Positions 6,150 to 43,895 of a stretch of DNA of 64,000 nt are shown piece by piece; the first letter of the stretch is position 1, and each line of letters begins with the position of its first letter. The notes below the pieces were generated by a model. The model saw only the letters and a list, made by a program, of their open reading frames with translations, searched no databases and was not told the DNA's origin. A program made the position numbers and the translations under genes. Source of the DNA: Chloroflexaceae bacterium (GTDB lineage: Bacteria > Chloroflexota > Chloroflexia > Chloroflexales > Chloroflexaceae). Location: positions 62,001-126,000 of the forward strand of contig JANQID010000052.1 in the NCBI GenBank assembly GCA_028282325.1, given 5' to 3'.

Positions 6150-6165
6150 TAGCAAAGGAAATACT

Positions 6166-22295: not shown

Positions 22296-22461
22296 GAAAC
22301 CCTGGCAAGTCCGCTATTTGTTCAAAACATCCAACGTTTCTTTAACAAATTTGTGCAATCCTGACGTAGCGTGAGTACGCCGATTCCTTGTAAGATGATA
22401 TGCAGCACATAAGCTTTATAAAGATACATTGCGCGACCAAGTATATGTCGATAGCCGAGTT

Positions 22462-22630: not shown

Positions 22631-24052
22631 ATGGCAATGACACCAAAAGGCGTGCTGGACCTCATCAAAGAGAAGGATATCAAAATGGTGGATGTTCGGT
22701 TCACCGATATGCCTGGCACCTGGCAACACTTCTCTCTTCCGGCAAACGTATTGAGTGAAAGTGATTTTACTGACGGTCTCGGTTTCGATGGCTCGTCCAT
22801 CCGCGGCTTTCAGGCGATCAACGAAAGCGATATGTTGGTCTTTCCTGATCCCGATACGGCCTTTGTTGACCCGATGCTCAAGATCCCCACTCTTGCGATC
22901 TATTGCGATATCCGCGATCCGCTGACGGGCGAGCCGTATTCGCGCGATCCGCGCAACATCGCACGCAAGGCCGAGTCCTATCTCTCATCAACGGGGATCG
23001 CCGATACCGCCTTCTTCGGGCCGGAAGCCGAATTTTTCCTCTTCACCGACATCCGCTTCGATCAGAACAGCTACAGCGGCTACTACTTCATCGATAGCGA
23101 TGAGGCAATTTGGAATAGCGGCAAGGATATGAATGGCCAGAACAAAGGCTATCGCCCACGTCATAAGGAAGGCTATTTCCCCGTGCCGCCGCTTGACTCG
23201 CTGCAAGATGTGCGATCGCAAATCGTGCTCAATATGATGGAAGCGGGTATCGACATCGAAGTGCACCACCACGAAGTGGCCACCGCAGGTCAATGTGAAA
23301 TCGATATGCGCTTCAAACCGCTGGTGCAGATGGCCGACCAGGTGATGCTCTACAAGTACATTGTCAAGAACACGGCGCAGCAGCTTGGCTACACGGCTAC
23401 GTTTATGCCCAAGCCGCTCTTCGGTGACAATGGTAGCGGTATGCACACCCACCAGAGCCTGTGGAAGAATGGCGAACCGCTGTTCTTTGACGAGAGCAAG
23501 TACGCGTTGTTGTCCGATATGGCCCGTTACTACATCGGCGGTATTCTCAAGCACGCCCCGACGCTGTTGGCTTTTGCGGCGCCGACGACAAACAGCTATC
23601 GCCGTCTGGTGCCCGGTTTTGAAGCGCCGATCAACCTGGTCTATTCACAACGCAACCGTTCGGCGGCGGTACGTATTCCGACCTATTCGTCATCGCCCAA
23701 GGCCCGCCGCATCGAGTTCCGTGCGCCCGACGCAATGGCCAATCCGTATCTGGCATTTGCCGCGATGCTGATGGCCGGTCTCGACGGCATTATCAACAAG
23801 ATCGAGCCGCCGCCTCCTCTGGATGTGGACATCTACGAATTGACGGCGGAGGAGAAGGCCGGCGTCCACGGCACGCCCGGCTCGCTTGCCGAAGCGCTCG
23901 ATGCCCTGGAAGAAGACAACGCGTTCTTGTTGCGCGGCGATGTCTTCACCGAAGACGTGGTCAGCACCTATCTCGACTACAAGCGGGTTGAGGCGACGCA
24001 GTTGGCGTTGCGTCCACATCCGTACGAATTCTTCCTCTATTACGACGCCTAA
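22631..24052 (+). CDS. glnA: Glutamine synthetase type I
   Basis: A 473-residue cytoplasmic enzyme that makes glutamine from glutamate, ammonia and ATP. Signatures in order: [16 protein letters not shown] near 23, [10 protein letters not shown] near 53, [11 protein letters not shown] near 125 (metal site), [19 protein letters not shown] near 258, [19 protein letters not shown] near 331, and RRIEFRAPD. It starts at the ATG behind AAGGAGGCG. Length and motifs fit the dodecameric GSI-beta or alpha class. A strong terminator follows, so glnA is monocistronic even though amt and the PII gene come next. The upstream palindrome suggests nitrogen control. No adenylyltransferase gene is present. Confidence 0.96.
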
Positions 24053-24082
24053 TAGCGGCGATCTTTATGGTATGTCCACGAG

Positions 24083-24113
24083 GGAGATGTGGAAAGAAAA
24101 CTTCCACATCTCC
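24083..24113 (+). terminator. Intrinsic terminator of glnA
   Basis: Arms GGAGATGTGGAA / TTCCACATCTCC (12 bp, 7-nt loop), then TTGCTTTTTATT, 30 bp after the glnA stop. Confidence 0.85.
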
Positions 24114-24211
24114 TTGCTTTTTATTGGAAAGCATATCTCATCAGAATAGTTTCCAGGAAGGATAGCCAGCAATGATTAATTGTTAGGCTACGCGCGATGG
24201 CACAACGAAAT

Positions 24212-24228
24212 GTTCGGTCTGGACGAAC
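24212..24228. promoter_or_regulatory. GTTCG-N7-CGAAC dyad upstream of amt (candidate operator)
   Basis: GTTCGGTCTGGACGAAC lies 59 bp before the amt ATG. It shares the half-site GTTCG/CGAAC with the palindrome upstream of glnA. The inner spacing differs by one base (6 versus 7), which weakens the match. Confidence 0.4.
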
Positions 24229-24287
24229 GACGATGTTCGTATGCATATGTCTTCGTTTGAGTACAAAGCTATGAAGGAGCAACTAGT

Positions 24288-25511
24288 ATGGAAGGCATCG
24301 ACACGGGTGATACAGCCTGGGTACTCGTCTCAACGGCATTGGTGCTTGTGATGACCCCAGCCCTGGCCTTCTTTTATGGCGGTATGGTTCGCAAGAAAAA
24401 CCTGCTTTCAACCCTGAACCTCAGTTTCGTGATGATCGGCGTGATCAGCCTCCAATGGGTTTTGTACGGATATTCGCTGGCCTTCGGAAACGACATCGGC
24501 GGTTGGATCGGCGATATGAAGTTCGCAGGCTTTTCCGGCGTCGGATCTGATCCCAACGCCGATTATGCCGCGACGATACCGCATCTGGCGTTCGCGGGAT
24601 ACCAGATGATGTTCGCGGTCATCACGCCAGCGCTGATTACCGGCGCTTTCGTTGAGCGGGTGCGCTTTCCCGCCTTCCTCATCTTCAGCGTGCTCTGGGC
24701 GACACTAGTCTACGATCCGGTCGCCCACTGGGTCTGGGGCGTCGGCGGCGTATTGCGCGAGATGGGCGCGTTAGACTTCGCCGGCGGCACGGTTGTGCAT
24801 GCGATTTCAGGCTTCTCAGCGCTGGTGTTTGCACTAGTCATCGGAGCACGGCGTGGCTTTGGCAGAGCGCCGATGGAACCTAACAACATCCCCTTCAGCG
24901 TGTTGGGCACAGGTCTGTTGTGGATGGGCTGGTTCGGTTTCAATGGTGGCAGCGCGCTAGGCGCGAATGGTCTGGCTGCAAACGCTATTGTCACGACAAA
25001 CACTGCCGCCGCCGCCGCTGGTCTGGTCTGGATGTTCTTGAGTTGGCAAGAAAATAAACCCAGCGTCCTCGGATTCGTAACTGGTGCAGTAGTCGGACTG
25101 GTTGCTATCACCCCCGCCGCCGGCTTCGTAACGCCGCTCGCGGCTATTGCAATCGGTGCCATTGCAGCGCCGATCAGCTACTACGCCATTCGCCTGCGCC
25201 AGAGGCTCAACTTCGATGAGTCACTGGATGTATGGGCGTGCCACGGGGTCGGCGGCACGTGGGGTGCACTGGCCACCGGTCTGTTCGCGACGACAGCGGT
25301 CAACCCAGGCGGGGCCGATGGATTATTCTACGGCAATCCTGGCCAATTCGTGACTCAGGCCATCGCGGTCTTCGGCGCAGTCATTTTCGCCTCTGTGCTG
25401 ACTTTTGTGATTGCCAAGCTGCTGCAAATGACGATTGGGCTGCGCGTAACGGAAAACGAAGAAGAAGTTGGGTTGGATATCAGCGAACACGGCGAGCGCG
25501 CTTACGCCTGA
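24288..25511 (+). CDS. amt: Ammonium transporter Amt (first copy)
   Basis: A 407-residue membrane protein of the Amt/MEP/Rh family with about 11 membrane spans. It starts GDTAWVLVSTALVLVMTPALA. The signature region DFAGGTVVHAISGFSALVFAL near 160 contains the first pore His. DESLDVWACHGVGGTWGALATG near 308-329 contains the second. The family usually conducts ammonium as a trimer. It has no obvious cleaved signal peptide. The PII gene follows after 45 bp with no terminator between, the classic amtB-glnK pairing in which PII plugs the transporter when nitrogen is sufficient. The start ATG follows GAAGGAG. Confidence 0.94.
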   Translation: MEGIDTGDTAWVLVSTALVLVMTPALAFFYGGMVRKKNLLSTLNLSFVMIGVISLQWVLYGYSLAFGNDIGGWIGDMKFAGFSGVGSDPNADYAATIPHLAFAGYQMMFAVITPALITGAFVERVRFPAFLIFSVLWATLVYDPVAHWVWGVGGVLREMGALDFAGGTVVHAISGFSALVFALVIGARRGFGRAPMEPNNIPFSVLGTGLLWMGWFGFNGGSALGANGLAANAIVTTNTAAAAAGLVWMFLSWQENKPSVLGFVTGAVVGLVAITPAAGFVTPLAAIAIGAIAAPISYYAIRLRQRLNFDESLDVWACHGVGGTWGALATGLFATTAVNPGGADGLFYGNPGQFVTQAIAVFGAVIFASVLTFVIAKLLQMTIGLRVTENEEEVGLDISEHGERAYA

Positions 25512-25556
25512 GTGCGGACGTCTGCCTCTATATCATAAGATCTGGAGTGATCACCG

Positions 25557-25931
25557 ATGACCAAGAAAATCGAGGCTATCATTCGCGAAGAGAAGCTCAA
25601 CGACGTCAAAGATGCACTGCGCGAGATTGGCATCATTGGGATGAATGTCTACGAAGTGCGCGGACACGGACGGCAGGGCGGCATCACTCTGGCCGGGCGC
25701 ATTGGAACGTATCAAATTGATATGTTACCTCGCCTTCAACTTAACATCATTCTGAGCGATCATAATGTTGAGAAGACGATCGAGACTATTCGACGCGCAG
25801 CGTCAACTGGCAGGCAAGGCGATGGCGTGATTTTCATCTACCCGGTTGATGAAGTCATTCGTATCCGTACCGGCGAGCGCGGCAAAGAAGCATTGACTTA
25901 CGAAGGCGACATCGACGATCGCCAGAGTTAA
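25557..25931 (+). CDS. glnK: PII nitrogen signalling protein (GlnB/GlnK), without the usual modified Tyr
   Basis: A 124-residue trimeric regulator that binds ATP/ADP and 2-oxoglutarate and usually docks on Amt. MTKKIEAIIREEKLNDVK is the typical N-terminus, and TGRQGDGVIFIYPVDEVIRI near 83-102 is the C-terminal signature with the ATP-binding loop. The T-loop reads GRQGGITLAGRIGTYQIDML. Aligned to E. coli GlnB, the uridylylated Tyr51 is replaced by Gly and the cyanobacterial phospho-Ser49 position is also Gly. So this PII probably works by ligand binding alone. It is cotranscribed with amt and ends at a strong terminator. Confidence 0.93.
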   Translation: MTKKIEAIIREEKLNDVKDALREIGIIGMNVYEVRGHGRQGGITLAGRIGTYQIDMLPRLQLNIILSDHNVEKTIETIRRAASTGRQGDGVIFIYPVDEVIRIRTGERGKEALTYEGDIDDRQS

Positions 25932-25970
25932 CGATAACTACAGCTTCTCAATACATTCCTCAACGACAAC

Positions 25971-26006
25971 AACGCCGCCCTGATTATCAGATCAGGGCGG
26001 CGTTTT
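25971..26006. terminator. Intrinsic terminator after the amt-PII operon
   Basis: Arms AACGCCGCCCTGAT / ATCAGGGCGGCGTT (14 bp, 6-nt loop), then TTGG. It lies between the PII gene and the convergent small gene at 26058 and could serve both. Confidence 0.85.
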
Positions 26007-26057
26007 GGTTTATAGGTAAATACCGATCAGAAACGAACGGGAATGATGTGACGCGGC

Positions 26058-26339
26058 TCAGTGGCGTGTTCGCCAGCGGAATGATAAGAGCGACATAACC
26101 AGCGCCAACATCATTGTTGTGCCACCGCAGTAGAGCATCAACGCATTCGCATCAAGCGTTCCTCGATAGACAAGCGCCCCCGCCGCCAGGAACATCCACG
26201 CCGCCCAGCTAAACACGACCATCGCGCGTTGCTCGATCACGTTCAACTTCGGCGAATCAAGGGCCAACAACGCTGTCGCCGTCCAGCCGATCAAAGCAAT
26301 CAGAATCCCCTGAAGATGCGGTATCGCCTCTACTATCAT
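26058..26339 (-). CDS. Small three-span membrane protein, unrecognised
   Basis: A 93-residue hydrophobic protein starting MIVEAIPHLQGILIALIGW. Three probable membrane helices lie near residues 9-26, 40-60 and 68-86, ending in SFRWRTRH (positive, so cytoplasmic). The ATG at 26339 follows a strong AGGAGG. An upstream in-frame ATG at 26441 would add a non-conserved hydrophilic leader and lies beyond that site. It is convergent with the PII gene. The nitrogen context is positional only and gives no function. Confidence 0.6.
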   Translation of the reverse strand: MIVEAIPHLQGILIALIGWTATALLALDSPKLNVIEQRAMVVFSWAAWMFLAAGALVYRGTLDANALMLYCGGTTMMLALVMSLLSFRWRTRH

Positions 26340-26489
26340 ACATCCGCCTCCTATGCCGCTACGCATGGTATCTCGAACATCGTTGCTCGTGTGGTATGTG
26401 GTCATAGTAACAGATGTTTTGGATACTTTCAACAATACCAAAGAGGTTTATTTTGTGCAATATGCACAAATTTTGATATTACTGGCAGA

Positions 26490-26628
26490 TACCAAACAAT
26501 ATTGGAGACACCGCATGCGGTCATTCTGAGCGCAGCGAAGAATCTCGGATTTCAAGGCCATTGAGACCCTTCACGCCGCCTGCGGCTCCGTTCAGGGTGA
26601 CATGCAGCATACGCATCATCGTTTGGCA
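26490..26628 (+). repeat. MITE-like element copy C (139 bp)
   Basis: TACCAAACAATATTGG to ATCGTTTGGCA (last base of the terminal repeat changed). Together with copy D it forms a direct repeat on either side of the terminator at 26657. Confidence 0.85.
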
Positions 26629-26656
26629 GATACCGGTACATCCGCGCAGACACAAA

Positions 26657-26695
26657 AAGCCCCTGGCCTGAGTACATCGCTCAGACCAGGGGCTT
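26657..26695 (-). terminator. Intrinsic terminator, probably of the second amt gene
   Basis: Arms AAGCCCCTGGCCTGAG / CTCAGACCAGGGGCTT (16 bp, one mismatch). On the minus strand TTTTTGTG follows, as expected for the amt transcript that ends at 26950. Confidence 0.75.
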
Positions 26696-26720
26696 GTCAA
26701 CGTTAACTTTACTCAGTATC

Positions 26721-26859
26721 TACCAAACAATATTGGAAACACCGTATGGTGTCATTCTGAGCGCAGCGAAGAATCTCCGATTCCCCCAACGCTGAGACCC
26801 TTCACGCCGCCTGCGGCTCCGTTCAGGGTGACATGCAGCATACGCATCATCGTTTGGTA
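26721..26859 (+). repeat. MITE-like element copy D (139 bp)
   Basis: TACCAAACAATATTGG to ATCGTTTGGTA, with both terminal repeats intact. It lies between the second amt gene and that gene's apparent terminator, so it is probably transcribed in the 3' UTR. Confidence 0.85.
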
Positions 26860-26949
26860 CCTTGATCTATCTCAACGCATCATTGCGATATACATAACAA
26901 CCTCGTTGCGCAAACAACGCCGCACTCTTGACAACCTTAAGCTGTATAC

Positions 26950-28374
26950 TTACTTCGCGGGCGAATGGCTGACGCCGCTCATCGCCGGAGCCGGTTCCGG
27001 AAGACTCAGGTCAGGATACGCCAGCGAACCATGCTCGCCTACATCCAGCCCGGCCTCTTCTTCCTCAGCGCTCACGCGGAGACCGACGGTCATCTTGATT
27101 CCCAGGAACAATGCCCCAGAAAGCCCTACTGTCCACAACCCGACCGCGAGGACACCGACAACCTGAGCAATGAGCAGGGTCATGCCGCCGCCGGCGAATA
27201 GCCCCAGCGTGCCCGTGTTGCCCTCGATGGTAGCGAAGAGACCGACAGCCAGCGTACCCCAAACGCCATTCACCAGGTGCGCCGGAACCGCGCCAACCGG
27301 ATCGTCAATCTTCAGCTTCTCCATCCAATCGGCAGAGAAGACAATCAGCGAACCGGCAACCAGACCAATGATCACCGCGGCGAGCGGTCCAACATACGCG
27401 CAGGGAGCGGTGATCGCCACCAAGCCGCCGATCACGCCATTGAGCGTCATACTAATATCGGGCTTGCCCTTCATAATCCAGGTCGTGAGCATCGCAGTCA
27501 CAGCGCCAGCTGCCGCCGCCAGGGTGGTGTTGACTGCCACCAGTGCGATTGCGCTTGCATCAGCCTGTGACGAGAACGCCAACTGGCTGCCGGGGTTGAA
27601 GCCATACCATCCGAGCCAGAGGATGAAGACGCCCAGCGCGCCCAGCGCGATGTTGTGCCCTGGAATGGCGCGCGGCTTGCCATCGGCAGCAAAGCGCCCC
27701 AGACGCGGACCAAGAATGAGCGCTCCCATCAACGCCGCCCATCCGCCGACGCTATGCACCACGGTGCTACCGGCAAAATCGGTGAAGCCCCAGTTGCCCT
27801 CGGTGCTGCCGCTGTAGGTGTTCAACCAGCCCGATCCACTCCATACCCAGTGGACCACGACCGGGTAAATAATCAATGTAATGACTGCGCTAAAGATCAG
27901 ATAGCTGCTAAACTTGGTGCGTTCTGACATTGCGCCGGAGACGATAGTCGCCGCTGTTCCGGCAAACACAACCTGGAAGAGCCAACTTGCCAGCAGCGGA
28001 ACGCCGACTTCGCTCGCGTCATAACCAATGAAAAACTGATCTGTACCGATAAAGCCGCCAGCCGACGTGCCGTATGCCAGACCCCAACCAATCGCCCAGA
28101 ACGTCAACGCAGCGACCGAGAAGTCCATCAGGTTCTTCATTAAGATATTGACCGTGTTCTTTGAGCGAGTGAAACCCGCCTCAAGCAAGGCAAAGCCGGC
28201 CTGCATAAAGAACACCAGAAAAGCAGCAACGAGCAGCCACATCGCGTCCAGAGCTACTGCATGATCCTCTACCACAGCAGCTGCATCCTGTGCAAATGCA
28301 GTTCCGCTTAATGCGAACCAGATCCCCGCGGCACCCGCAATACCTATGCCCCACTTGCGCAACGATCGTTTCAT
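26950..28374 (-). CDS. amt: Ammonium transporter Amt (second copy, with signal peptide)
   Basis: A 474-residue Amt family transporter. It begins with a signal peptide (MKRSLRKWGIGIAGAAGIWF, likely cleaved after ALSGTAFA). The mature part then has MWLLVAAFLVFFMQAGFALL, GFTDFAGSTVVHSVGGWAAL with the first pore His, and DDPVGAVPAHLVNGVWGTLA with the second. It differs from the first Amt in its signal peptide, N-terminal extension and length, so the two are not a recent duplication. The ATG at 28374 is preferred for GGAGGG upstream and the signal peptide. There is no PII gene beside it. Confidence 0.93.
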   Translation of the reverse strand: MKRSLRKWGIGIAGAAGIWFALSGTAFAQDAAAVVEDHAVALDAMWLLVAAFLVFFMQAGFALLEAGFTRSKNTVNILMKNLMDFSVAALTFWAIGWGLAYGTSAGGFIGTDQFFIGYDASEVGVPLLASWLFQVVFAGTAATIVSGAMSERTKFSSYLIFSAVITLIIYPVVVHWVWSGSGWLNTYSGSTEGNWGFTDFAGSTVVHSVGGWAALMGALILGPRLGRFAADGKPRAIPGHNIALGALGVFILWLGWYGFNPGSQLAFSSQADASAIALVAVNTTLAAAAGAVTAMLTTWIMKGKPDISMTLNGVIGGLVAITAPCAYVGPLAAVIIGLVAGSLIVFSADWMEKLKIDDPVGAVPAHLVNGVWGTLAVGLFATIEGNTGTLGLFAGGGMTLLIAQVVGVLAVGLWTVGLSGALFLGIKMTVGLRVSAEEEEAGLDVGEHGSLAYPDLSLPEPAPAMSGVSHSPAK

Positions 28375-28611
28375 TTGAATTCGTCCCTCCATAATTGTAG
28401 TGATCGTGACCAAAAACTTGTCACGTAACAACTATTACTACGACGAGAGAGCTTTTGGTGACTCCGCAGCCTGATGCGGTGAAATGCATTTCAGAACATC
28501 TGAGTGCTATGTGATGAATGGCTGTCCAAAGCCTTACTCAAAAAGGTCTCGTTGTAGTACTATTCTCTATAAATACCTGTAATTCGTGTTTTAGAGTACA
28601 CAAAAAAACAC

Positions 28612-29586: not shown

Positions 29587-30363
29587 ATGGCGGCAACAAG
29601 CATTGAACATAATCAGCGCGATGAGCAATCTTCCGCAGATCAAGGAACGCTTGATGAGAAGACTTTGCAAATGATTGAGATATTCGCCGAACGTCGTTTC
29701 CAAAGCTTCCAGGCGAACCAGCGCATCCGCTTTCATTTGACGATTTGGATCATTCGCACCAAGATTATCCAGAACTTGAAGCGAGCGCTTGATATACTCA
29801 TAGCCTCTGGTGCAATCGTTGCTTCTTCTCCAATTATGGGGATAACCGCAGTTGCGATCAAGCTTAACTCCCCTGGCCCTGTGATATTTCGCCAGACCAG
29901 AGTCGGCAAATGGGGATCAACCTTCCAATGCTATAAGTTTCGTTCTATGTATACTGATGCAGAGCAACGGTTGAAAGGACTTATGGCGCATAATGAAGCC
30001 GACGGCCCAGTGTTCAAAATGAAGCACGATCCACGTATTACCCGCGTGGGAAGGATCATTCGCAAGCTGAGCATCGATGAGTTACCGCAACTCTTCAACG
30101 TGTTGAAGGGTGAGATGAGTCTGGTGGGACCACGTCCGGCGCTGCCCCACGAGGTCGCAACGTACAGCTTTGATGAACGCCAACGCCTCAACGCTATCCC
30201 TGGCATCACTGGATTGCAGCAAGTTTCCGGGCGAAGCGATATAGACTTTAAACGCTGGGTTGAGCTTGATGTGCAATACATCTCAGAGCAGAGTCTGTGG
30301 AAGGATATTGAGATCCTTTTCAAGACTATTCCCGCAGTCTTGTTTAGCAAAGGCGCATATTGA
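29587..30363 (+). CDS. Undecaprenyl-phosphate sugar-1-phosphate transferase (short PGT type)
   Basis: A 258-residue bacterial sugar transferase (monotopic phosphoglycosyl transferase), which puts the first sugar-phosphate on the lipid carrier. LKRALDILIASGAIVASSPI near 63-82 is the membrane-entering helix. FRQTRVGKWGSTFQCYKFRSM follows near 101-121. The catalytic Asp-Glu pair is in LSIDELPQLFNVLKGEMSLV near 162-181, followed by GPRPALP, and GLQQVSGR lies near 207. It lacks the four-helix N-terminal half of WcaJ/WbaP. The ATG at 29587 has AGAGG upstream; an earlier GTG/TTG-type extension lacks support. It heads the exopolysaccharide/partner-switch block. Confidence 0.9.
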   Translation: MAATSIEHNQRDEQSSADQGTLDEKTLQMIEIFAERRFQSFQANQRIRFHLTIWIIRTKIIQNLKRALDILIASGAIVASSPIMGITAVAIKLNSPGPVIFRQTRVGKWGSTFQCYKFRSMYTDAEQRLKGLMAHNEADGPVFKMKHDPRITRVGRIIRKLSIDELPQLFNVLKGEMSLVGPRPALPHEVATYSFDERQRLNAIPGITGLQQVSGRSDIDFKRWVELDVQYISEQSLWKDIEILFKTIPAVLFSKGAY

Positions 30364-30462
30364 ACCGGTCTCCAGGATCGATGTGAGCTAATCCATAAGC
30401 TGTTATCGTTCCAATTGTATTGGCAGCAGGGTAACGGCATGTTTTGAGGAGGGATAGCGCAT

Positions 30463-31920
30463 ATGCGAAAGCTGCTCATTGTTCTGGGCGTTCCCATCGA
30501 TGATCTGATTATAGACGAGGCTCTTAACCGCATCGAGAGCTTCATTGCCGTGGGTCGCGCTACAAAGAAATGTCATCAAATTGCAACCATTAATGCAGAC
30601 TTTGTTGTAAACTCACTCTATGATCCTGATCTTCGCCGAATTCTTCAGCAGGCGGATATGGCAACAGCTGATGGCATGCCGCTGGTATGGGGAGCAAGAT
30701 TGCTAGGGGTTCATCTCGAAGATCGCGTTACTGGCGCGGATCTTGTGCCGGCGTTGGCTGAACGTTCCGCCCAAAAGGGATTTTCAATTTATCTGTTGGG
30801 AGCGAAGCCAGGAGTCGCCGCTCGGGCAGCCGAAGTGTTACGTGATCGCTACCCGGGAGTCAATATCGTCGGTGTCGTATCTCCGCCATATGGGCCGATC
30901 CGTGAAATGGATCGCTCTATAATTAACGACATTAAAGCGGCTCGCCCGGACATTCTAATGGTTGCGCTTGGCAACCCGAAACAAGAAAAATGGATTGATA
31001 TGTACGCGCCGGAATTAAACGTTCCGGTATGCCTTGGCATTGGCGGTACGCTTGATTTTATTGCCGGCGTGACAAAGCGTGCGCCTGTATGGATGCAGAG
31101 GAGCGGCGTAGAGTGGATATATCGGCTGATGCAAGAACCACGGCGCCTCTGGAAACGCTACGTCCAAGATCTATTCTACTTTAGCTCATTTTTTGTTCGG
31201 CAGTGGTGGTCGATGCGTCAGGGATATCAAACAACGACATTGATTCCTTCATCCGATGCAGTGATGATGATCGATCAAACCGCTATTATGAATATCCAGG
31301 GACGGTTGGATGTTCGAAACTATGCGACGTTTATGGCCAGAGCAGAACAAGCGCTCGCTCTGAGTCCTTTCATCATTGTGAATCTTGCCAACACAGCATT
31401 TCTGGATAGTTCGGCGATGGGGGCGCTAGTTACCCTGGCCAATCGGGCACGAGGAAATGGGGGCGATCTCTGGCTGGTGAATGTACCGAAACACATCGCG
31501 GATATTCTGTCGATTATCAAGCTCGATCAATTCTTCGATATGCTGGATGATGTGGAGTCTGCGCTCCAGATCCGGCGGACAAGAGAAACTCTAGCAGCGC
31601 CAAAAGAAAGCGATACTGATGAATGGCAGGTGGTGAAGGCTCCGCGCATCGTTGATGGATCGCTTGAAACGGTGGTGATAAACAACCATATTCCTGATCC
31701 ACTGACGGATGCGCGTTTAATCATTGACTTGAGTGATACCATTATTATGTCGCAAGATGGCATTAATTCGCTGCTTCGGCTTGATCAGAAAATGCGTGTT
31801 AACAAGGGTCAATTGCGCATTGCGGGTTGCTCTGGAGATGTTTTACAGAGTTTTCAATCTATGCACCTCGATACTGTTCTAACAATCTGCCAAGATGTGG
31901 AAACCGCAGCTACATCATAA
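30463..31920 (+). CDS. WecG/TagA/CpsF glycosyltransferase fused to two STAS domains
   Basis: A 485-residue fusion. Residues 1-245 are a WecG/TagA-type glycosyltransferase: TINADFVVNSLYDPDLRRIL near 43, the catalytic-Asp string ATADGMPLVWGARL near 66, and ALGNPKQEKWID near 168. Residues about 268-365 form a STAS (anti-anti-sigma) domain, with a conserved core and FLDSSAMGALVTL at the usual phospho-Ser site. Residues about 385-483 form a second, more diverged STAS-like domain, with IMSQDGINSLLRL at the same place. There Asp replaces the phospho-Ser. The start ATG follows GAGGAGGG. Downstream genes encode the matching STAS, phosphatase and kinase, so the transferase itself may be a target of partner switching. 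Confidence 0.85.
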   Translation: MRKLLIVLGVPIDDLIIDEALNRIESFIAVGRATKKCHQIATINADFVVNSLYDPDLRRILQQADMATADGMPLVWGARLLGVHLEDRVTGADLVPALAERSAQKGFSIYLLGAKPGVAARAAEVLRDRYPGVNIVGVVSPPYGPIREMDRSIINDIKAARPDILMVALGNPKQEKWIDMYAPELNVPVCLGIGGTLDFIAGVTKRAPVWMQRSGVEWIYRLMQEPRRLWKRYVQDLFYFSSFFVRQWWSMRQGYQTTTLIPSSDAVMMIDQTAIMNIQGRLDVRNYATFMARAEQALALSPFIIVNLANTAFLDSSAMGALVTLANRARGNGGDLWLVNVPKHIADILSIIKLDQFFDMLDDVESALQIRRTRETLAAPKESDTDEWQVVKAPRIVDGSLETVVINNHIPDPLTDARLIIDLSDTIIMSQDGINSLLRLDQKMRVNKGQLRIAGCSGDVLQSFQSMHLDTVLTICQDVETAATS

Positions 31921-31934
31921 GGATATATGAAGCG

Positions 31935-33653
31935 ATGCAAGTTTTATTGCTGGCAACTGGTGAAAATGAGCATCTGGCCCCGCTTACTACAAAACGACCG
32001 TCTCCTATGGTGGCGGTTGTTGATCGTCCAGTTATGGCCATTGCTATAGAAAACTTGGTTCGTGCGGGCATTAAACGGGTTCTGGTCAGCCTCTACAATC
32101 AAGGCAGCAGTGTTGTATCATATTTTGGGGATGGTCGACGTTGGGGAATAAAAATTGAATATTTGCCTCAGAACCAGTTGTGGGGATCGGCAGGCATACT
32201 CAAATGGATTGCCCGACGTTTGCAGGAGTCAGTACTGGTGTTGCCTGCAGATGCCATCATTGATCTCGACGCGAGTATGGCAATGAAAGCGCACCATGCC
32301 GGCGGCAGCGGTATGACGTTGGTTCTCCATCAACCACAACACAAACACGAGGAACGGCTGGTCAACCTGGATGCACACAATAAGATCTGCGCTATTGGCG
32401 AGGAGACATCAACCGATACAACACTTGCCAACTTTACGGGAGCATTTATTTTTGATCCCGGCATGCTTGAATACATTCCGGCGAATACCGAATATAATGT
32501 TTATGAGGATCTCTTGCCACAGTTGCTCAGTTCGGGCGTAGAAGTTACTGGTTATATGATGCCAGGGTACTGGAACGCACTCAGTACTTTCAATGACTAC
32601 CAGTCTGCGCAAGTAACATATTTGCGGAACGCACGGGCGCAGAGCGATAATTCAGACGAGCAAGCGAGCGATATAAAACTCCTGCGCTACACATTAATGA
32701 ATCAGGCGCGTCAGATCGCTCCTGGCGTATGGGTCGGTGCAAATAGCTATATTCATCCTGATGCTCGGATTGCATCTCCGATCTATATTGGCAGCAATTG
32801 CTCAATTGGAGGCAATGTAGAATTAGGCCCAGAAGCTGTTATTGGATCAGGAGTTATCATTGACAGCGGAGCGACCGTCCAGTACAGTACAATTTTGGAA
32901 CATACGTACGTTGGCCAGTTTGTAAACGTTGACTCCCGGATAGTGGAACAAACAATGATCATTGATCCTGCCACTTCCAGCACAACCAATACTGTCGATC
33001 CGTTTCTCCTTTCAGAGACGACACGCACTGAAACAACTCGTCAAGCGTGGCTTTCCGTACTAGTAGCTGCGTTTCTTTTGTTCCTGTCGCTTCCGTTAAC
33101 CATACCAATCAGCTTACTGCTTTTTGTTGCGGCGCGCGGTCAAGTATTTAGTCGTACTCCCCATATCCATAGCCGACGAATTGGTCAGCCACCTTCCGCA
33201 ACACATACTAATCCGGAATCCTTTGATTTGTTGCGCTTTTCAACCCAGCGTCGTGATGGTTCCCTGAGTCGGCTAGGAAGCTGGCTGTGTAAGCGGGAGA
33301 TTGATCGAATACCAACGCTTTGGAATGTCGTTCGCGGGGATATCGGTTTAGTAGGAGTCAAGCCGCTCACACTAGAAGAAGCTGCTAATCTGACGGACGA
33401 TTGGCAGTTGCGTCGTTATACGTGTCCCGCTGGTTTTACGGGTCTTTGGTATACACAGGCTGATGCCGATAGCAATCTGGAGACCATCCTGATCACGGAC
33501 GCTTATTACGCAGCGACCCGAAGTTGGTTAGAGGACTTACGCATTTTGATCCGAACGCCTATGGTATGGCTCCGACGTACACGTTCTTCCCAGGCATCTG
33601 ACCATCAGCTTTCGTCATCCAAGGAACAGGTTGATGAAGTACATATAGCATAG
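31935..33653 (+). CDS. Nucleotidyltransferase-like / beta-helix / sugar transferase fusion
   Basis: A 572-residue three-part protein. Residues 1-235 resemble a sugar-nucleotide pyrophosphorylase, but the GGxGxRLxPLT loop reads ATGENEHLAPLT, without the catalytic Arg. Residues about 260-350 are hexapeptide repeats (IGSNCSIGGNVELGPEAVIG) forming a left-handed beta-helix, as in GlmU-type proteins. A membrane helix (WLSVLVAAFLLFLSLPLTIP) follows near 376, then a PGT-like domain. In that domain DELPQLxNVLxGxxSLVGPRP appears as DRIPTLWNVVRGDIGLVG, so the catalytic Glu is missing. Both enzyme halves look altered, which suggests a binding or scaffold role. The start is the ATG at 31935, 14 bp after the previous stop. 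Confidence 0.75.
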   Translation: MQVLLLATGENEHLAPLTTKRPSPMVAVVDRPVMAIAIENLVRAGIKRVLVSLYNQGSSVVSYFGDGRRWGIKIEYLPQNQLWGSAGILKWIARRLQESVLVLPADAIIDLDASMAMKAHHAGGSGMTLVLHQPQHKHEERLVNLDAHNKICAIGEETSTDTTLANFTGAFIFDPGMLEYIPANTEYNVYEDLLPQLLSSGVEVTGYMMPGYWNALSTFNDYQSAQVTYLRNARAQSDNSDEQASDIKLLRYTLMNQARQIAPGVWVGANSYIHPDARIASPIYIGSNCSIGGNVELGPEAVIGSGVIIDSGATVQYSTILEHTYVGQFVNVDSRIVEQTMIIDPATSSTTNTVDPFLLSETTRTETTRQAWLSVLVAAFLLFLSLPLTIPISLLLFVAARGQVFSRTPHIHSRRIGQPPSATHTNPESFDLLRFSTQRRDGSLSRLGSWLCKREIDRIPTLWNVVRGDIGLVGVKPLTLEEAANLTDDWQLRRYTCPAGFTGLWYTQADADSNLETILITDAYYAATRSWLEDLRILIRTPMVWLRRTRSSQASDHQLSSSKEQVDEVHIA

Positions 33654-33692
33654 GTCGTTCGTTAAGATGTGGATCTAAGGAGTAATAGATTT

Positions 33693-34031
33693 ATGGATCT
33701 GACAATCCGTTCGGAAGGTAACGTGACCATCCTTGAGATTTCTGGCCGGTTTGACAACCGTACCGCGCCAGCGGTCGCCGAAGAGTTGGAAAAAGTGACT
33801 CGGACTGAACCAGCGCGGCTTGTCGTGAATATGACAAACGTTTCATTTGTTGACTCCACGGCGCTGGCAACGTTGGTACAGGGACTCAAACGCTGCCGAC
33901 AACGTCGGGGTGAGCTCTATCTGTGTGGTTTGCAAAATCAGGTCTACATGATTTTTGAGTTGACTCGCCTTGACAAGGCTTTCACTATCTTTCCCGATGA
34001 GGCAAACGCTCTGCAGGCATTTGAGAACTAA
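33693..34031 (+). CDS. STAS-domain anti-sigma factor antagonist (SpoIIAA/RsbV-like)
   Basis: A 112-residue stand-alone STAS protein: MDLTIRSEGNVTILEISGRF, VNMTNVSFVDSTALATLV near 48-65, and GELYLCGLQNQVYMIFELTRL. The phosphorylation site of this family (second Ser in DSS) is Thr here (DST). In partner switching, the unphosphorylated form binds the RsbW-type kinase and the phosphatase restores it. The AAGGAG site lies 9 bp before the ATG at 33693. The next gene begins 6 bp after its stop. Confidence 0.9.
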   Translation: MDLTIRSEGNVTILEISGRFDNRTAPAVAEELEKVTRTEPARLVVNMTNVSFVDSTALATLVQGLKRCRQRRGELYLCGLQNQVYMIFELTRLDKAFTIFPDEANALQAFEN

Positions 34032-34037
34032 GCGACA

Positions 34038-35576
34038 ATGGCTGATATCCTTTCAATGCTCGTGAACTCCCAGCATGATCGATTCGATGATATTGCCGAG
34101 TCGTGGCTTGCGATGGGAGCTACGTCATTCAGTATCTGGGAAAATAATCAGATGTTGGCGCATTGGCCCCAACATCATCAGATTCAACCTGGTGAGCTAG
34201 TTGCCCCCATTGTCGCTGGCGATGCAATCCTCGGCGAACTGCATGTGACGGGTCTGGCAGATCCGGCTTCGGTTATGCGACTCAAAGCCGAAGCGGGTAT
34301 AATTTCATATGTGAGCCAGTTAGAATATGATCTGGATATGATGACGTCCGAGTTAGTTCAGCATCAAGATCAACTACTGGCTATCTATAAGCTTACTCGC
34401 TCGATGCATAGCCAGATGACTATCGATGCTATGCTGAACTTCTCCTTACTTGAGGCGCTTCGTATGATCGGAGCGCAGAGCGGGTTTGCCGCGATTGTGC
34501 CGACCAATCAGGAAGCGCTGCTGGTGCAATATCCTGAAGGTATTCTTGACGAGGCAGCGCTCTGGCGCTACTTCTGGCAAATGCATACTCGTGATCGAGA
34601 ATTTGTCTTGATTTCGATGCATGAGCAAGACAAACTGTTGCTTCCGCCAGGCGTTTCCAACGTTTTGTTTATCCCAATCAATATTCGGAATACAGTCGCA
34701 GCGGGAGTAGGATTCCTGAACAAGCCGGAGGAAGATTTCAGCGCCCCCGACATCAAATTAGCGCGTGCTATCGCATCACAGGTGAGTGCTCAAATCGAAA
34801 TGTTCCTCCTTTATCATGAAACATTTGAGCAGGCTAAGCTGCAATCTGAAATGGATCTCGCGCGTCGCGTCCAACTCAATCTATTGCCGCAGCATTTGCC
34901 AATGGTGACTGGTCTCGATCTCTATGCCACCACACGCCCGGCTTTCAAAGTGGGCGGAGATTTCTATGATGTCATCGCCAACGAGCAACGTCCGTTCTTC
35001 TTTTCGGTCGGCGATATCACAGGCAAAGGTCTCTCAGCGGCCCTGCTTATGACGATGGCTCTTTCGGCAATTCGTGCAAAAGCGAGCTTTATGCCCAACC
35101 CAACGCCTGAAACGATTATGCGGCAGTCAAATGAAGACCTGTACAATAACTTCACGCAGTTGGGGGTTTTCGCTACGGTGTTTATTGGTCAGTACCTTCC
35201 TGAACAACAGCAAATGGTTTTCGCGAATGCTGGTCATTCGCCTGTCATCTACAGGCCGTACAATACACACGCACGTTTACTCAAGGCTGCTAGTACGGCC
35301 ATTGGAATATTACCGGATATCTTCTGTACGAACGAGAATATTGTGTTTCGTCCTGGGGATATATTGGTGGTCGCAACAGATGGATTCAGCGAGGCGTGCA
35401 ACCAACAAGAAAGCATGTTCGGCTATGATCGGATGCTTGACCTCATCGATGAGAAAGCAGACCGGTCAGCACAAGAGATCGCAGAGGCGTTGTTTTCAGC
35501 TGTAGAGCAGTTTCGCGAGAACCACCCCCAGGAAGATGATCAGACATTGATTGTACTCAAAGGAGTGGCAGCGTGA
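34038..35576 (+). CDS. RsbU-like PP2C phosphatase with GAF-type sensor
   Basis: A 512-residue SpoIIE-type serine phosphatase. Residues about 125-265 form a GAF-like sensor (LLEALRMIGAQSGFAAIVP). A coiled linker (EQAKLQSEMDLARRVQLNLL) leads to the catalytic domain, near 290-510. Its metal-binding Asp motifs are FKVGGDFYDV, VGDITGKGLSAALLM, VVATDGFSEA and EDDQTLIVLKG. It should dephosphorylate the STAS proteins or domains. The next gene starts in the GTGA overlap at its stop, so the phosphatase and kinase are translationally coupled. The signal sensed by the GAF region is unknown. Confidence 0.9.
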   Translation: MADILSMLVNSQHDRFDDIAESWLAMGATSFSIWENNQMLAHWPQHHQIQPGELVAPIVAGDAILGELHVTGLADPASVMRLKAEAGIISYVSQLEYDLDMMTSELVQHQDQLLAIYKLTRSMHSQMTIDAMLNFSLLEALRMIGAQSGFAAIVPTNQEALLVQYPEGILDEAALWRYFWQMHTRDREFVLISMHEQDKLLLPPGVSNVLFIPINIRNTVAAGVGFLNKPEEDFSAPDIKLARAIASQVSAQIEMFLLYHETFEQAKLQSEMDLARRVQLNLLPQHLPMVTGLDLYATTRPAFKVGGDFYDVIANEQRPFFFSVGDITGKGLSAALLMTMALSAIRAKASFMPNPTPETIMRQSNEDLYNNFTQLGVFATVFIGQYLPEQQQMVFANAGHSPVIYRPYNTHARLLKAASTAIGILPDIFCTNENIVFRPGDILVVATDGFSEACNQQESMFGYDRMLDLIDEKADRSAQEIAEALFSAVEQFRENHPQEDDQTLIVLKGVAA

Positions 35577-36001
35577 AACAACGCCAATCGGACATCATAC
35601 GGCTAGAATTGCCGGCAACGTACACGTATTTACCGCTGTTGAGCGCATGTATTGCCGAAATGATCGAGCAAATTGACTCGGTCAACGATCGAAACGTTGT
35701 AGCATATAACATTCAGCTGTCAGCTCACGAAGTGTGCGCGAATATCGTCGATCACGCCTATGAACATCAGGATGGCAAGTTCTTCGAGGTCACGCTTACA
35801 TTGTCGTTTGAAGCACGCAGTCTGGTAATTGAGATGCACGATACGGGGGACGCATTTAATCTTGCCAGTGTACCGAAGCCTGATCTGGATGAAGTTCATG
35901 AGCATGGGTATGGGTTGTTTCTTGTTCACAGTTTGATGGATGAGGTTGTCTATCAATCACAACCGGATGGGAACCACTGGCGTCTGGTTAAGTATCTATA
36001 A
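35573..36001 (+). CDS. RsbW-like anti-sigma/serine kinase (HATPase_c_2)
   Basis: A 142-residue GHKL ATPase of the RsbW/SpoIIAB type. The N-box is HEVCANIVDHAYEHQ near 50-64, the G1 box DTGDAFNLAS near 88 and the G2 box EHGYGLFLVHSL near 108. It should phosphorylate STAS partners. The GTG start overlaps the phosphatase stop by 4 bp (GTGA). No sigma factor gene lies nearby, so the target is probably not a sigma factor. The fused STAS domains of the glycosyltransferase are the nearest candidates. Confidence 0.88.
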   Translation: MKQRQSDIIRLELPATYTYLPLLSACIAEMIEQIDSVNDRNVVAYNIQLSAHEVCANIVDHAYEHQDGKFFEVTLTLSFEARSLVIEMHDTGDAFNLASVPKPDLDEVHEHGYGLFLVHSLMDEVVYQSQPDGNHWRLVKYL

Positions 36002-36021
36002 GACACCAAGGATACACTATT

Positions 36022-36453
36022 ATGGCAACGATACTTATCGTCGATGACTATTCGCCTATTCAACGTTTGATGAGCTTTATTCTCCGGCAGGAGCATTACG
36101 AGGTCATAATTGCCTCAAACGGTCAGCAGGCGCTTGAAAAAATGTTTACAACGCCAGTAGATCTCATCATTACGGACTGGTGTATGCCAAATATGGATGG
36201 CTATACATTGTTGAAACATATACGAACTGACGGTCGATTGAGTCATATACCGATTATTATTCTGACAGCGAGCGGTGACGATCGTGACCGCCGGCGTGCA
36301 TGCGAAGCTGGCGCAAGTCATTTTCTTACCAAGCCGGTCGAGTCTGAGGAAATCCTGCATATTGTAAACCAGTTGTTGATACAACGCCATAATGATGTAA
36401 AAGAGGAAAGTGTCGTTCGTCAACCATCTCTTGCATATATGCCTGCCGCGTAA
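36022..36453 (+). CDS. CheY-like response regulator (single receiver domain)
   Basis: A 143-residue receiver domain with no output domain. The acidic pair is ILIVDDYSP near 7, the phospho-Asp is in LIITDWCMPNMDGY near 50, Thr is in IIILTASGDD near 78 and Lys is in HFLTKPVESE near 103. A short hydrophilic tail follows. No histidine kinase is encoded here. It closes the partner-switch operon, 20 bp after the kinase, and may pass a phosphorelay signal to the phosphatase or to polysaccharide enzymes. Its exact role is not visible. Confidence 0.88.
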   Translation: MATILIVDDYSPIQRLMSFILRQEHYEVIIASNGQQALEKMFTTPVDLIITDWCMPNMDGYTLLKHIRTDGRLSHIPIIILTASGDDRDRRRACEAGASHFLTKPVESEEILHIVNQLLIQRHNDVKEESVVRQPSLAYMPAA

Positions 36454-36602: not shown

Positions 36603-36622
36603 GCCGCTGTATCATCAGCGGC
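36603..36622 (+). terminator. Possible terminator after the response regulator
   Basis: Arms GCCGCTG / CAGCGGC (7 bp, 6-nt loop) in the 300-bp gap before rfbF. The following sequence is not T-rich, so this is weak. I see nothing else in that gap. Confidence 0.4.
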
Positions 36623-36753: not shown

Positions 36754-37536
36754 ATGAAAGCTGTTATTCTCGCAGGAGGGCATGGTACGCGGATCAGTGA
36801 AGAGAGCAACATTCGTCCGAAGCCGATGGTAGAGATTGGCGGCAAACCCATTCTCTGGCATATCATGAAGATTTACTCGGCGCATGGAATTAATGATTTC
36901 GTCGTTTGCTGCGGCTACAAAGCCTATGTTATCAAGGAATATTTCTCGAATTATTTCTTGCATACCGCTGATGTGACCTTCGATATGCGTTATAACTCTA
37001 TGCAAGTTCATCATGCTAGCACAGATCCCTGGAAGGTGACTCTAGTTGATACAGGCGAGAATACGATGACGGGCGGTCGCCTGAAGCGAGTCAAGGAATA
37101 CCTCAGTAACGAGACGTTCTGTATGACCTATGGCGATGGCGTTAGCGATGTGGATATTACTCGGCAGCTTGAATATCATCGCGAGCAGGGAGTCTTGGCA
37201 ACTTTAACCGCTGTTCAGCCGCCAGGGCGTTTTGGCGCATTTGTGTTGGGTGAGGATCAGGCTCGTATCTCTTCCTTCAAAGAAAAGCCTCAGGGAGACG
37301 GCGAAGGCGCCTGGATCAATGGCGGTTTCTTTGTTCTTGAACCTCAAGTGCTTGATTATATCGAAGGCGATACTACGGTGTGGGAGCGTGAGCCATTAGA
37401 GCAACTCGCACACAATGACCAACTCACGGCATATCGGCACACCGGATTCTGGCAACCAATGGATACCCTACGCGACAAGAATTTTCTGGAGGGATTGTGG
37501 CAGCAAGGCAATCCTCCCTGGAAGGTTTGGGAATAG
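36754..37536 (+). CDS. rfbF: Glucose-1-phosphate cytidylyltransferase
   Basis: A 260-residue nucleotidyltransferase that makes CDP-glucose from CTP and glucose-1-phosphate. [19 protein letters not shown] is the nucleotide loop. [20 protein letters not shown] near 21-40 and [11 protein letters not shown] near 126 (metal Asp) are typical of RfbF, as is [17 protein letters not shown]. The expected next enzyme, CDP-glucose 4,6-dehydratase (RfbG), may be the SDR at 37619 or may lie elsewhere. The ATG at 36754 fits the conserved N-terminus; GAAAGGACA is a moderate ribosome site. Confidence 0.9.
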
Positions 37537-37618
37537 AATCACGCTTATGCTGTGTGGTACGTTTCTGAGGCCAAATTCTATGCTTTGGCGAGCAGCATAC
37601 CATTAAGGAATAGCTTAT

Positions 37619-38650
37619 ATGAACGTGTTACTCACTGGAAGCGGCGGCTATATTGGAACTGTTACCGCGTCTGCGTTGATGAGTCAGGGATTTGATGTAA
37701 CCGGTGTTGACACCGGTTACTATGCTAGCGGCTGGTTGTATCACGGAGTCATACAGGCGCCGCGGTGGATCGTCAAGGACATTCGCCAGATTACCGTCGA
37801 GGATCTGGCTGGATACGACGCCGTCGTCCATATGGCTGAGTTGTCGAACGATCCGCTGGGCCAGCTCAACCCGGAAGTTACCTATATCATCAACCATCAA
37901 GGCAGCGTTGCGCTGGCGAAGAAGGCTCGGCAGGCGGGCGTTTCTCGCTTCGTTTATATGTCATCGTGCAGTGTCTACGGCGTCGGCTCCGACGATTTCA
38001 AGACGGAGGAGTCCGAGACAAATCCTCAGACCGCCTACGCCAAGAGCAAGGTTATGGTTGAGCGCGATGTCTCGCAAATGGCGAATGATGAATTTTCGCC
38101 CACGTTCTTACGCAATGCAACGGCGTTTGGCGCTTCCCCGCGGATGCGTTTCGACGTGGTTTTGAATAACTTGTCGGGTCTAGCCTGGACGACGGGTGAG
38201 ATTCGTATGACCAGCGACGGAACGCCGTGGCGACCGCTGGTGCACATTCTCGATATTTCGCAGGCGATCGGCAGCGTATTGAAGGCGCCGCGTGAAATCG
38301 TGCATAATCAGATATTCAATACTGGCGACTCCCAGCAGAATTACCGCGTGCGCGAGATCGCCGAAATTGTCGCCGAGACGTTTCCGGGCTGTGAGTTGAG
38401 CTTTGGTGCAAGCGATAAAGATAATCGCAGTTATCGCGTCTCGTTTGAGAAAATCAACACGCAGTTGCCCGGTTTCAAGTGCCGCTATGATGCGGCAAAA
38501 GGAGCGGAGCAACTCCGTGAGGTATTCGAAGGCATTGGCATGACGCGCGAGATCTTCGGGGCACCTCCGTATACTCGCTTGAAGATGCTCCAGCTATTGA
38601 TTAACACCGGACAAGTCGATAATCAGCTCTTCTGGAGGGATCTGCCATGA
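37619..38650 (+). CDS. NAD-dependent epimerase/dehydratase (extended SDR) for nucleotide sugars
   Basis: A 343-residue extended SDR. NAD binding is by NVLLTGSGGYIGTVTASAL at the N-terminus. The active-site strings are VYMSSCSVYG near 120 and AYAKSKV near 139 (YxxxK). VHILDISQAIGSVL near 210 is a typical substrate-domain region. It lies between the CDP-glucose synthase and RfbC, so it probably acts on a nucleotide sugar, either as the 4,6-dehydratase step or as a later reductase or epimerase. Its stop overlaps the rfbC start (ATGA), so the two are translationally coupled. Confidence 0.85.
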   Translation: MNVLLTGSGGYIGTVTASALMSQGFDVTGVDTGYYASGWLYHGVIQAPRWIVKDIRQITVEDLAGYDAVVHMAELSNDPLGQLNPEVTYIINHQGSVALAKKARQAGVSRFVYMSSCSVYGVGSDDFKTEESETNPQTAYAKSKVMVERDVSQMANDEFSPTFLRNATAFGASPRMRFDVVLNNLSGLAWTTGEIRMTSDGTPWRPLVHILDISQAIGSVLKAPREIVHNQIFNTGDSQQNYRVREIAEIVAETFPGCELSFGASDKDNRSYRVSFEKINTQLPGFKCRYDAAKGAEQLREVFEGIGMTREIFGAPPYTRLKMLQLLINTGQVDNQLFWRDLP

Positions 38651-39177
38651 TTTTTACCGAAACAGCCTTGCACGGTGCGTACATTATTGATCCGGAAAAG
38701 CGCGCGGATCCGCGCGGATTTTTTGCCCGCGCCTGGTGCCAGCGTGAATTTGAAGAGCATAATCTGGTTCCGCGTATTGTGCAAGTCAACCTTTCCTACA
38801 ATAAAACCGAGGGGACGCTGCGCGGAATGCACTATCAGCGCGCGCCATATGCGGAAACAAAGCTGATCCGCTGCACTCGCGGCGCAATCTATGATGTTAT
38901 CATTGATTTGCGCCCCGAATCACCTACCTACAAGCAGTGGATCGGCGTTGAGTTGACTGCTGACAATTATCGGATGCTCTTTGTTCCAGAAGGCTTCGCG
39001 CACGGCTTCCAGACCTTGGAAGACAGCACGGATGTAACGTATCAGGTTTCAGAGTTCTACACTCCTGGCGTCGAAGGCGGCGTGCGTTACAATGATCCGC
39101 TGTTTTCTATTCAGTGGCCATTGGAAGTCACTGTCATCAGCGACAAAGATCGCTCGTGGCCGGATTATGAGGTATAG
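38647..39177 (+). CDS. rfbC: dTDP-4-dehydrorhamnose 3,5-epimerase family protein
   Basis: A 176-residue cupin-fold sugar epimerase. FTETALHGAYIIDPEKRADP at the N-terminus, RGFFARAWCQREFEEHNLV near 21-39, LRGMHYQRAPYAETKLIRC near 59-77 (active-site His) and MLFVPEGFAHGFQTLED near 111 are all family features. It overlaps the SDR gene by 4 bp. Because it sits behind a CDP-glucose synthase it may epimerise a CDP-sugar rather than dTDP-4-keto-6-deoxyglucose. The dTDP route is still possible because rfbB is at 52184. Confidence 0.9.
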   Translation: MIFTETALHGAYIIDPEKRADPRGFFARAWCQREFEEHNLVPRIVQVNLSYNKTEGTLRGMHYQRAPYAETKLIRCTRGAIYDVIIDLRPESPTYKQWIGVELTADNYRMLFVPEGFAHGFQTLEDSTDVTYQVSEFYTPGVEGGVRYNDPLFSIQWPLEVTVISDKDRSWPDYEV

Positions 39178-40781: not shown

Positions 40782-40920
40782 TACCAAACAATACTGGAGA
40801 CACCGCAAGCGGTCATTCTGAGCGCAGCGAAGAATCTCGGATTCCAAGGCCATCGAGACCCTTCCTCTTCGCTTCGCTCAGGATCAGGGTGACATGCAGC
40901 ATACTCATCATCGTTTGGTA
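40782..40920 (+). repeat. MITE-like element copy E (139 bp)
   Basis: TACCAAACAATACTGGAG to ATCATCGTTTGGTA. First of three copies in the 1-kb gap 40566-41577. Confidence 0.85.
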
Positions 40921-41121
40921 GATTGATCAGCGAAGGTGCTAAAACAACTAGGGTGCGCCACCAATTTCGGGCTACGTTCAACCGTAGCTACCAAACGAAT
41001 TTGGATCTACCGCATGCGGTCATTCTGAGCGGAGCGACGAATCCCGGCTGTCAGGGAAGCCGAGACCCTTCGCTCCGCTCAGGGTCAGGGTGACATGCAG
41101 CATACGCATCATCGTTTGGTA
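40921..41121 (+). repeat. 201-bp tandem duplication, first unit (contains MITE-like copy F, 40989-41121)
   Basis: The segment starting GATTGATCAGCGAAGGTGCT and running through a copy of the element (TACCAAACGAATTTGG, 133 bp) repeats at an offset of 201 bp, starting again at 41122. Copy F belongs to the shorter AATTTGGATCTACCG subtype. Confidence 0.8.
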
Positions 41122-41315
41122 GATTGATCAACGAAGGTGCTAAAACAACTAGGGTGCGCCACCAATCTCGGGCTACGTACAACCGTAGCTACCAAACGAA
41201 TTTGGATCTACCGCATGCGGTCATTCTGAGCGCAGCGAAGAATCCCGGCTGTCAGGGAAGCCGAGACCCTTCGCTCCGCTCAGGGTGGCATGCGGCCTGT
41301 TCATTATGTTTGGCA
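41122..41315 (+). repeat. 201-bp tandem duplication, second unit (contains MITE-like copy G, 41190-41315)
   Basis: GATTGATCAACGAAGGTGCT, then the same spacer and a 126-bp element ending ATGTTTGGCA. The two units differ by few substitutions in the spacer, but their elements end differently. Confidence 0.8.
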
Positions 41316-41452
41316 GCATCTGATCATTTGTTCTATTCCTGACTGGAACGCCATAGAAAAATGCTGAAACTATCTCTGGACTATCGAAAGGTGAAGTATA
41401 ATTGGCCGTAACGGCCTGCTGCTGCCATTGCGTGAAGAAGATGGCGCATATG

Positions 41453-43892: not shown

Positions 43893-43895
43893 GCG

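Follow-up and report, generated by a model that had tools for sequence, protein, structure and literature searches.

A WecG/TagA glycosyltransferase fused to tandem STAS domains, encoded with an RsbUVW-type switch in Chloroflexota, as a possible direct target of partner switching

A run of seven genes was analysed at positions 29587-36453 of a 64,000-nucleotide stretch (the window, in the following) of contig JANQID010000052.1 from a Chloroflexaceae bacterium. In this run a WecG/TagA-type glycosyltransferase with two STAS domains at its C-terminus (the fusion) is encoded together with a free STAS protein, a PP2C phosphatase, a GHKL kinase and a receiver. Judged from the sequences, an RsbUVW-type switch may well act directly on the WecG/TagA enzyme at its regulatory C-terminus, so that its output would be a polysaccharide enzyme and no sigma factor. 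The reading is based on the fusion and the linkage of the genes, the invariant Asp-Ser pair and SpoIIAA/RsbV-like fold of the first STAS domain and the conserved catalytic residues of kinase, phosphatase and glycosyltransferase. It is also based on the kinase that stays beside the fusion in two split loci, the lack of a SigB/F/G-like type among the five region-3 sigma factors of the genome, a PHP-STAS fusion inside a related module and three precedents (HfsJ/HfiA, the TagA appendage and SiaABCD).

The seven genes lie on the + strand, and their domains were assigned by Pfam with agreement of NCBIfam. An earlier note, made from the sequence alone, had named the same seven genes on one strand with the same domains, and this reading is confirmed. 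The spacing it had described (6-100 bp with one 4-bp overlap) corresponds to gaps of 99, 14, 15, 6, -4 and 20 bp along the block. The likely starts are ATG 29587 for gene 1, ATG 31935 for gene 3 (the upstream TTG 31827 is disfavoured) and ATG 33693 or GTG 33669 for gene 4; the gap between genes 3 and 4 is 15 bp from the GTG and 39 bp if the STAS gene begins at the ATG.

Gene 1 (29587..30363) encodes a polyprenyl-phosphate glycosyl-1-phosphate transferase (PGT) of the EPS_sugtrans family, the initiating enzyme (Bac_transf PF02397, 1.2e-67). It is above the cut-off of TIGR03025, is close to EpsZ/WbaP in NCBIfam, and its catalytic Asp-Glu (DELPQ) is retained in all aligned homologues. The WecG/TagA/CpsF domain of gene 2, including a C-terminal appendage, covers residues 1-250 (30463..31212; PF03808, 2.5e-65) and scored 219.8 bits against a cut-off of 27.4 for PF03808 and 152.8 against 69 for TIGR00696; the cut-offs of the NCBIfam equivalog models for TarA, EpsA and WecG were not reached. 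The protein was modelled by AlphaFold2 (AF2) with 24 sequences (predicted local distance difference test, pLDDT, 79.9; predicted template-modelling score, pTM, 0.72), and its first 204 residues resemble the TagA structures 7mpk, 7n41 and 5wfg (Z about 27), with a GT-E fold (Z 27.3). Thr37, Asp65, Arg214 and Arg221 of TagA, whose catalytic and appendage roles were described in PMC6493773, align with T42, D70, R221 and R228 of gene 2, which are conserved, as is R232. Because these catalytic and appendage residues are conserved, the enzyme is probably active. The fold, the catalytic residues and the appendage are common to gene 2 and TagA/TarA (GT26), while about 230 residues of tandem STAS after the appendage set gene 2 apart. 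Genes 1 and 2 also match, below cut-off, the NCBIfam models of EpsZ and EpsA, which we take to be the initiation-pair proteins of Myxococcus; the present locus differs from that pair by the added STAS domains and switch genes. WecG open reading frames (ORFs) of 681-713 residues from other Chloroflexota were considered as STAS fusions and rejected, as on reading the sequences they have an N-terminal family-2-like transferase instead. In L064, L065, L066 and L072, from other Chloroflexota families, the WecG/TagA domain lies C-terminal to a family-2-like glycosyltransferase with membrane helices (sequence reading).

Behind the appendage, Pfam detected STAS in two stretches (4.2e-24), and both STAS folds are present in the AF2 model. 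This is in agreement with the two C-terminal STAS domains that the earlier note had placed in this protein and had proposed to check by structure prediction. STAS1 (about residues 262-372; 31246..31578) has the motif LDSSAMG with Ser316 at codon 31408-31410. Residues 260-374 match the SpoIIAA chain of the SpoIIAB complex 1th8 (Z 17.7), and the fold matches both SpoIIAA and RsbV chains from kinase complexes. Asp315-Ser316 is present in 24/24 aligned homologues. STAS2 (about residues 386-480, delimited by AF2 secondary structure; 31618..31902) is degenerate. In this genome SQDG replaces [AST]S[AIT]G, and Gln431 (codon 31753-31755), which is found in this genome only, stands at the position of the Ser. 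The Ser is kept in 22 of the 23 rows having a residue there, and the preceding Asp is absent from all aligned homologues. Since the Asp-Ser of STAS1 is invariant and STAS2 lacks the Asp and here also the Ser, STAS1 is likely the switch domain of the fusion. In a STAS tree, STAS1 and STAS2 of the fusions formed one clade each, as did the second STAS found in related modules, but the 109 columns gave no sister order among the three. STAS2 of this genome was on a long branch (1.24). The tree is compatible with a single origin of the fusion, and a fused STAS could derive from the free second STAS. The fusion ORF of Kouleothrix (L050) stops after STAS1, and this ending is uncertain because the contig breaks off about 77 bp further on.

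The switch genes follow downstream. The stand-alone RsbV-like STAS (gene 4; 33693..34031 from the ATG; Pfam STAS, 1.4e-23; motif FVDST) is above the cut-off of TIGR00377, with conserved Asp-Ser. Gene 5 (34038..35576) encodes a SpoIIE/RsbU-like Ser/Thr phosphatase of GAF and PP2C domains (GAF_2; SpoIIE, 3.8e-41), in which the metal-binding Asp motifs GGDF, GD.[TS]GKG, TDG and DDQT are conserved with few exceptions; among the NCBIfam models it matches SiaA best, without reaching the cut-off. The RsbW-like GHKL Ser kinase (gene 6; 35573..36001; HATPase_c_2 PF13581, 3.2e-22) has a conserved N-box (E53/N57) and conserved DxG and GxG (G1/G2-box) motifs, again with few exceptions. Gene 7 (36022..36453) is a single-domain CheY-like receiver (Response_reg PF00072, 6e-31), whose D9 and phospho-acceptor D52 are conserved in nearly all homologues; L035 is without the phospho-acceptor Asp. 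The features of RsbUVW are thus found in a PP2C with intact Asp motifs, a kinase with GHKL boxes, and Asp-Ser on the free STAS as well as on STAS1 of the fusion. As in RsbU/RsbV/RsbW and SpoIIE/SpoIIAA/SpoIIAB of B. subtilis, PP2C, Asp-Ser STAS and GHKL kinase are encoded together, and the fold of STAS1 matches SpoIIAA and RsbV of the kinase complexes. The difference is that no cognate sigma factor was found here and that a second STAS is located inside a glycosyltransferase.

The block could also be an ordinary sigma-factor partner switch inside a polysaccharide operon, with transcriptional control. The kinase does score against the RsbW/SpoIIAB models of NCBIfam, though below their cut-offs, and in L136 and L137 the module has an ECF (extracytoplasmic function)-like sigma gene some 5 kb away, as read from the sequence. 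However, the scan of window ORFs showed no sigma factor. Five region-3 sigma factors are encoded in the genome, every one with region 1.2; none of the five looks SigB/F/G-like (ECF factors were not surveyed), and the three scanned with NCBIfam reached 129-136 bits, far short of the 234 bits required for SigB/F/G. This is in line with the earlier note, which had proposed control with no transcription step. No cognate SigB/F/G-type factor was thus found as final target, while an ECF or group 2 target would be possible, and we consider the transcriptional explanation quite improbable. The module fails as a sigma-factor partner switch on the sigma factor and would otherwise work like one.

A scan of genome contigs gave 27 loci, 24 of which hold a WecG relative with STAS. 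When stretches from other genomes were included, the order PGT, WecG-STAS, gene 3, STAS, phosphatase, kinase and receiver on one strand was present at 17 loci besides the window, in two classes; because the order is identical in these other loci, the arrangement is not due to chance. The fusion occurred in 28/158 genomes of the own class, where it was confined to the own family and one other, and in 15/396 genomes of the class of L044 (record label Anaerolineae). Among the green filamentous bacteria and related Chloroflexota, kinase and phosphatase genes usually adjoin the fusion. Among 61 related genomes, 23 had the fusion with a full-length gene 3, one the fusion alone, one gene 3 alone and 36 neither (Fisher p 1.5e-14, with shared ancestry uncorrected). 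Two genomes, G011 and G023, have a split locus, in which PGT, fusion, gene 3 and kinase are together and STAS, phosphatase and receiver are on another contig; the kinase beside the fusion is the only close kinase homologue in those genomes. That the genes share an operon while their products do not interact is very improbable, as 18 loci from two classes have the same order, the fusion is covalent and the kinase has stayed next to it where the locus is split. As to the records scanned, the label Candidatus Gracilibacteria of L055 (JAAUTF010000001.1) looks wrong, and G016:C272 sits in the window's own family.

The linkage of the fused gene with rsbU/rsbW, for which a search in Chloroflexota had been proposed, is therefore seen at the 17 loci of the same order but is not universal, and several observations weigh against direct control of the enzyme. 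The complete genomes G003, G019 and G027 hold STAS, phosphatase, kinase and receiver without the fusion or a full gene 3. In Chloroploca the fusion is separate from the module, adjoining ABC-export-like and family-2-like transferase genes (sequence reading), and the remaining genes are together elsewhere. Two metagenome-assembled genomes (G423 and G424) have the fusion and gene 3 but no close phosphatase; their best phosphatase match is weak and belongs to another, larger protein, with open frames 958-967 residues long. To these are added the missing Ser of STAS2 in this genome, the co-occurrence counts uncorrected for ancestry, and the chance that the invariant Asp-Ser of STAS1 could be partly structural. 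Given the genomes with the module only and the weak phosphatase match in G423/G424, enzyme control is likely rather than certain.

Some of these observations would also suit a tandem STAS tail that is a constitutive assembly or localisation domain for a complex of PGT, glycosyltransferase and gene 3 (as in the stressosome or MlaB-like STAS), with RsbUVW acting only on the free STAS and towards another output. STAS2 without the Asp in all aligned homologues and without the Ser here, the two genomes in which fusion and gene 3 lack a close phosphatase, and the three with a module lacking the fusion are in line with such a tail. The acceptor Asp-Ser of STAS1, kept without exception, and the kinase that remains with the fusion in G011 and G023 speak against it, so we regard it as a serious though rather unlikely alternative. 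The fused STAS might instead be an input: the transferase would capture the kinase and so signal its own state or how much substrate it carries, while the free STAS controls another target. This would account for free STAS, phosphatase, kinase and receiver occurring without the fusion, and for the second free STAS adjoining the kinase in the related modules of G020, G022, G035 and G046; yet the conserved block has no other consistently linked output gene, and we think this explanation improbable. In L052 (5607-6725) a PHP-domain enzyme with a C-terminal STAS was found inside a related switch module. Together with the locus splits and the second free STAS, it weakly suggests that a STAS tag brings different clients under the module.

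Gene 3 (31935..33653) lies between the fusion and the free STAS and consists of a pseudo-nucleotidyltransferase, a left-handed beta-helix, a membrane helix and a pseudo-PGT (Pfam NTP_transferase, 7.5e-26; Hexapep; Bac_transf, 7.9e-21). The nucleotidyltransferase part resembles tlr0611 and GMPPA/GMPPB-type pyrophosphorylases in a model of pTM 0.48, which is too weak for the arrangement of beta-helix and PGT. The GxGTR nucleotide-binding signature is lost in all aligned homologues; in the PGT part the catalytic Glu is changed to Arg or Gln in nearly all of them and the Asp is replaced in most. So the domains of the nucleotidyltransferase-like/PGT fusion described earlier are present, and the loss of their catalytic motifs had gone unrecognised; gene 3 looks like a conserved pseudoenzyme. 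It is probably a scaffold or a nucleotide-sugar sensor, the sensing role being speculation.

For direct control of the transferase we propose the following scheme, in which the phosphorylation, the kinase binding and the sign of control are what we infer. The PGT would make the first lipid-linked sugar, and the WecG/TagA enzyme would add the second, by which the lipid carrier would be committed. The STAS tail comes directly after the appendage that gates activity in TagA. The RsbW-like kinase would bind and phosphorylate Ser316 of STAS1 and so keep the transferase inactive. The receiver, the likely input, and the GAF domain would pass on a signal that activates the PP2C phosphatase, which would dephosphorylate both the free STAS and STAS1; the dephosphorylated free STAS would then capture the kinase and the transferase would work. 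STAS2 may be a non-switching partner for assembly or docking, and gene 3 a catalytically dead scaffold or sensor of the kind mentioned above.

Parts of this scheme have precedents. In Vibrio fischeri (SypA/SypE) and Nostoc (HmpU/V/W), partner-switch components are likewise linked to a polysaccharide locus; SypA and HmpV are sigma-independent STAS switches controlling polysaccharide, whose output target is described as unknown (review PMC8256260). Their STAS proteins are described as stand-alone, whereas the candidate target here is covalently attached. In Pseudomonas, the switch protein SiaC switches the enzyme SiaD under the kinase SiaB and the phosphatase SiaA (PMC7278518, PMC8457831), and gene 5 has SiaA as its best model, as noted. 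SiaABCD differs in that its target is a diguanylate cyclase bound non-covalently, while the switch proteins here are STAS; neither a GGDEF target like SiaD nor a switch protein of the SiaC family was found, with no GGDEF in the block by Pfam. The Caulobacter WecG/TagA enzyme HfsJ is held off by binding of HfiA via the HfsJ C-terminus (PMC3900383), and in TagA the C-terminal appendage gates activity (PMC6493773). HfsJ is thus a WecG/TagA enzyme under direct post-translational control at the C-terminus, as proposed here, but its inhibitor is a small protein without phospho-switch, and HfsJ is not described with STAS. That a bound protein can control a WecG/TagA enzyme and that a phospho-switch can act on an enzyme are thus already known separately; their covalent combination was not found in the literature searched, and a limited search gave no paper on a STAS-WecG/TagA fusion.

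Downstream of the receiver gene, a terminator-like hairpin (36603..36622, +) is a consensus match only, and such sites are not enriched against shuffles. Nucleotide-sugar genes for a glucose-1-phosphate cytidylyltransferase-like NTP_transferase, an epimerase and a dTDP-sugar isomerase (36754..39177, +) adjoin the block, outside its conserved part; in L036 and L151, genes of this kind also occur upstream of the block. Beside the block in the window, the ORFs scanned include no flippase, no polymerase and no additional glycosyltransferase. For this reason the label of an exopolysaccharide locus, given in the earlier note, is thin. The locus is adjoined at 22631-28431 by a nitrogen-assimilation group, in which sequence reading suggests a glutamine-synthetase-like ORF, two ORFs resembling ammonium transporters and a P-II-like protein. 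A dispersed intergenic repeat family of about 140-200 nt, containing GGTCATTCTGAGCGCAGCGAAGAATC and partly tandem (40867-41268, 96% identical), has copies at 19304-19440, 26490-26857, 40782-41326 and 54904-55049 (+) and, in opposite orientation, at 22154-22297, 43830-43913 and 60025-60156. At 6139-8901 a 920-residue ORF has two FAD_binding_4 stretches and FAD-oxidase_C; two more FAD-oxidase genes precede it and an Fe-S/CCG protein comes after it, as a GlcDEF-like set. The window had no Rfam match.

Many culturable and uncultured Chloroflexota thus have a STAS with an invariant acceptor Ser inside a likely committing enzyme, beside a candidate kinase and phosphatase. This arrangement suggests that polysaccharide synthesis may be switched at the level of the enzyme itself, in both directions. 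Somewhat more tentatively, this could be the first partner switch to target a glycosyltransferase with its own phospho-switchable STAS, in which the balance of kinase and phosphatase would set chain initiation directly. Because the fused STAS lies beside the candidate kinase and phosphatase, a direct test of a STAS switch on a glycosyltransferase is feasible with few purified proteins. If the reading is true, Rosetta-stone logic would nominate WecG/TagA-type enzymes as candidate STAS targets elsewhere, as for SypA and HmpV.

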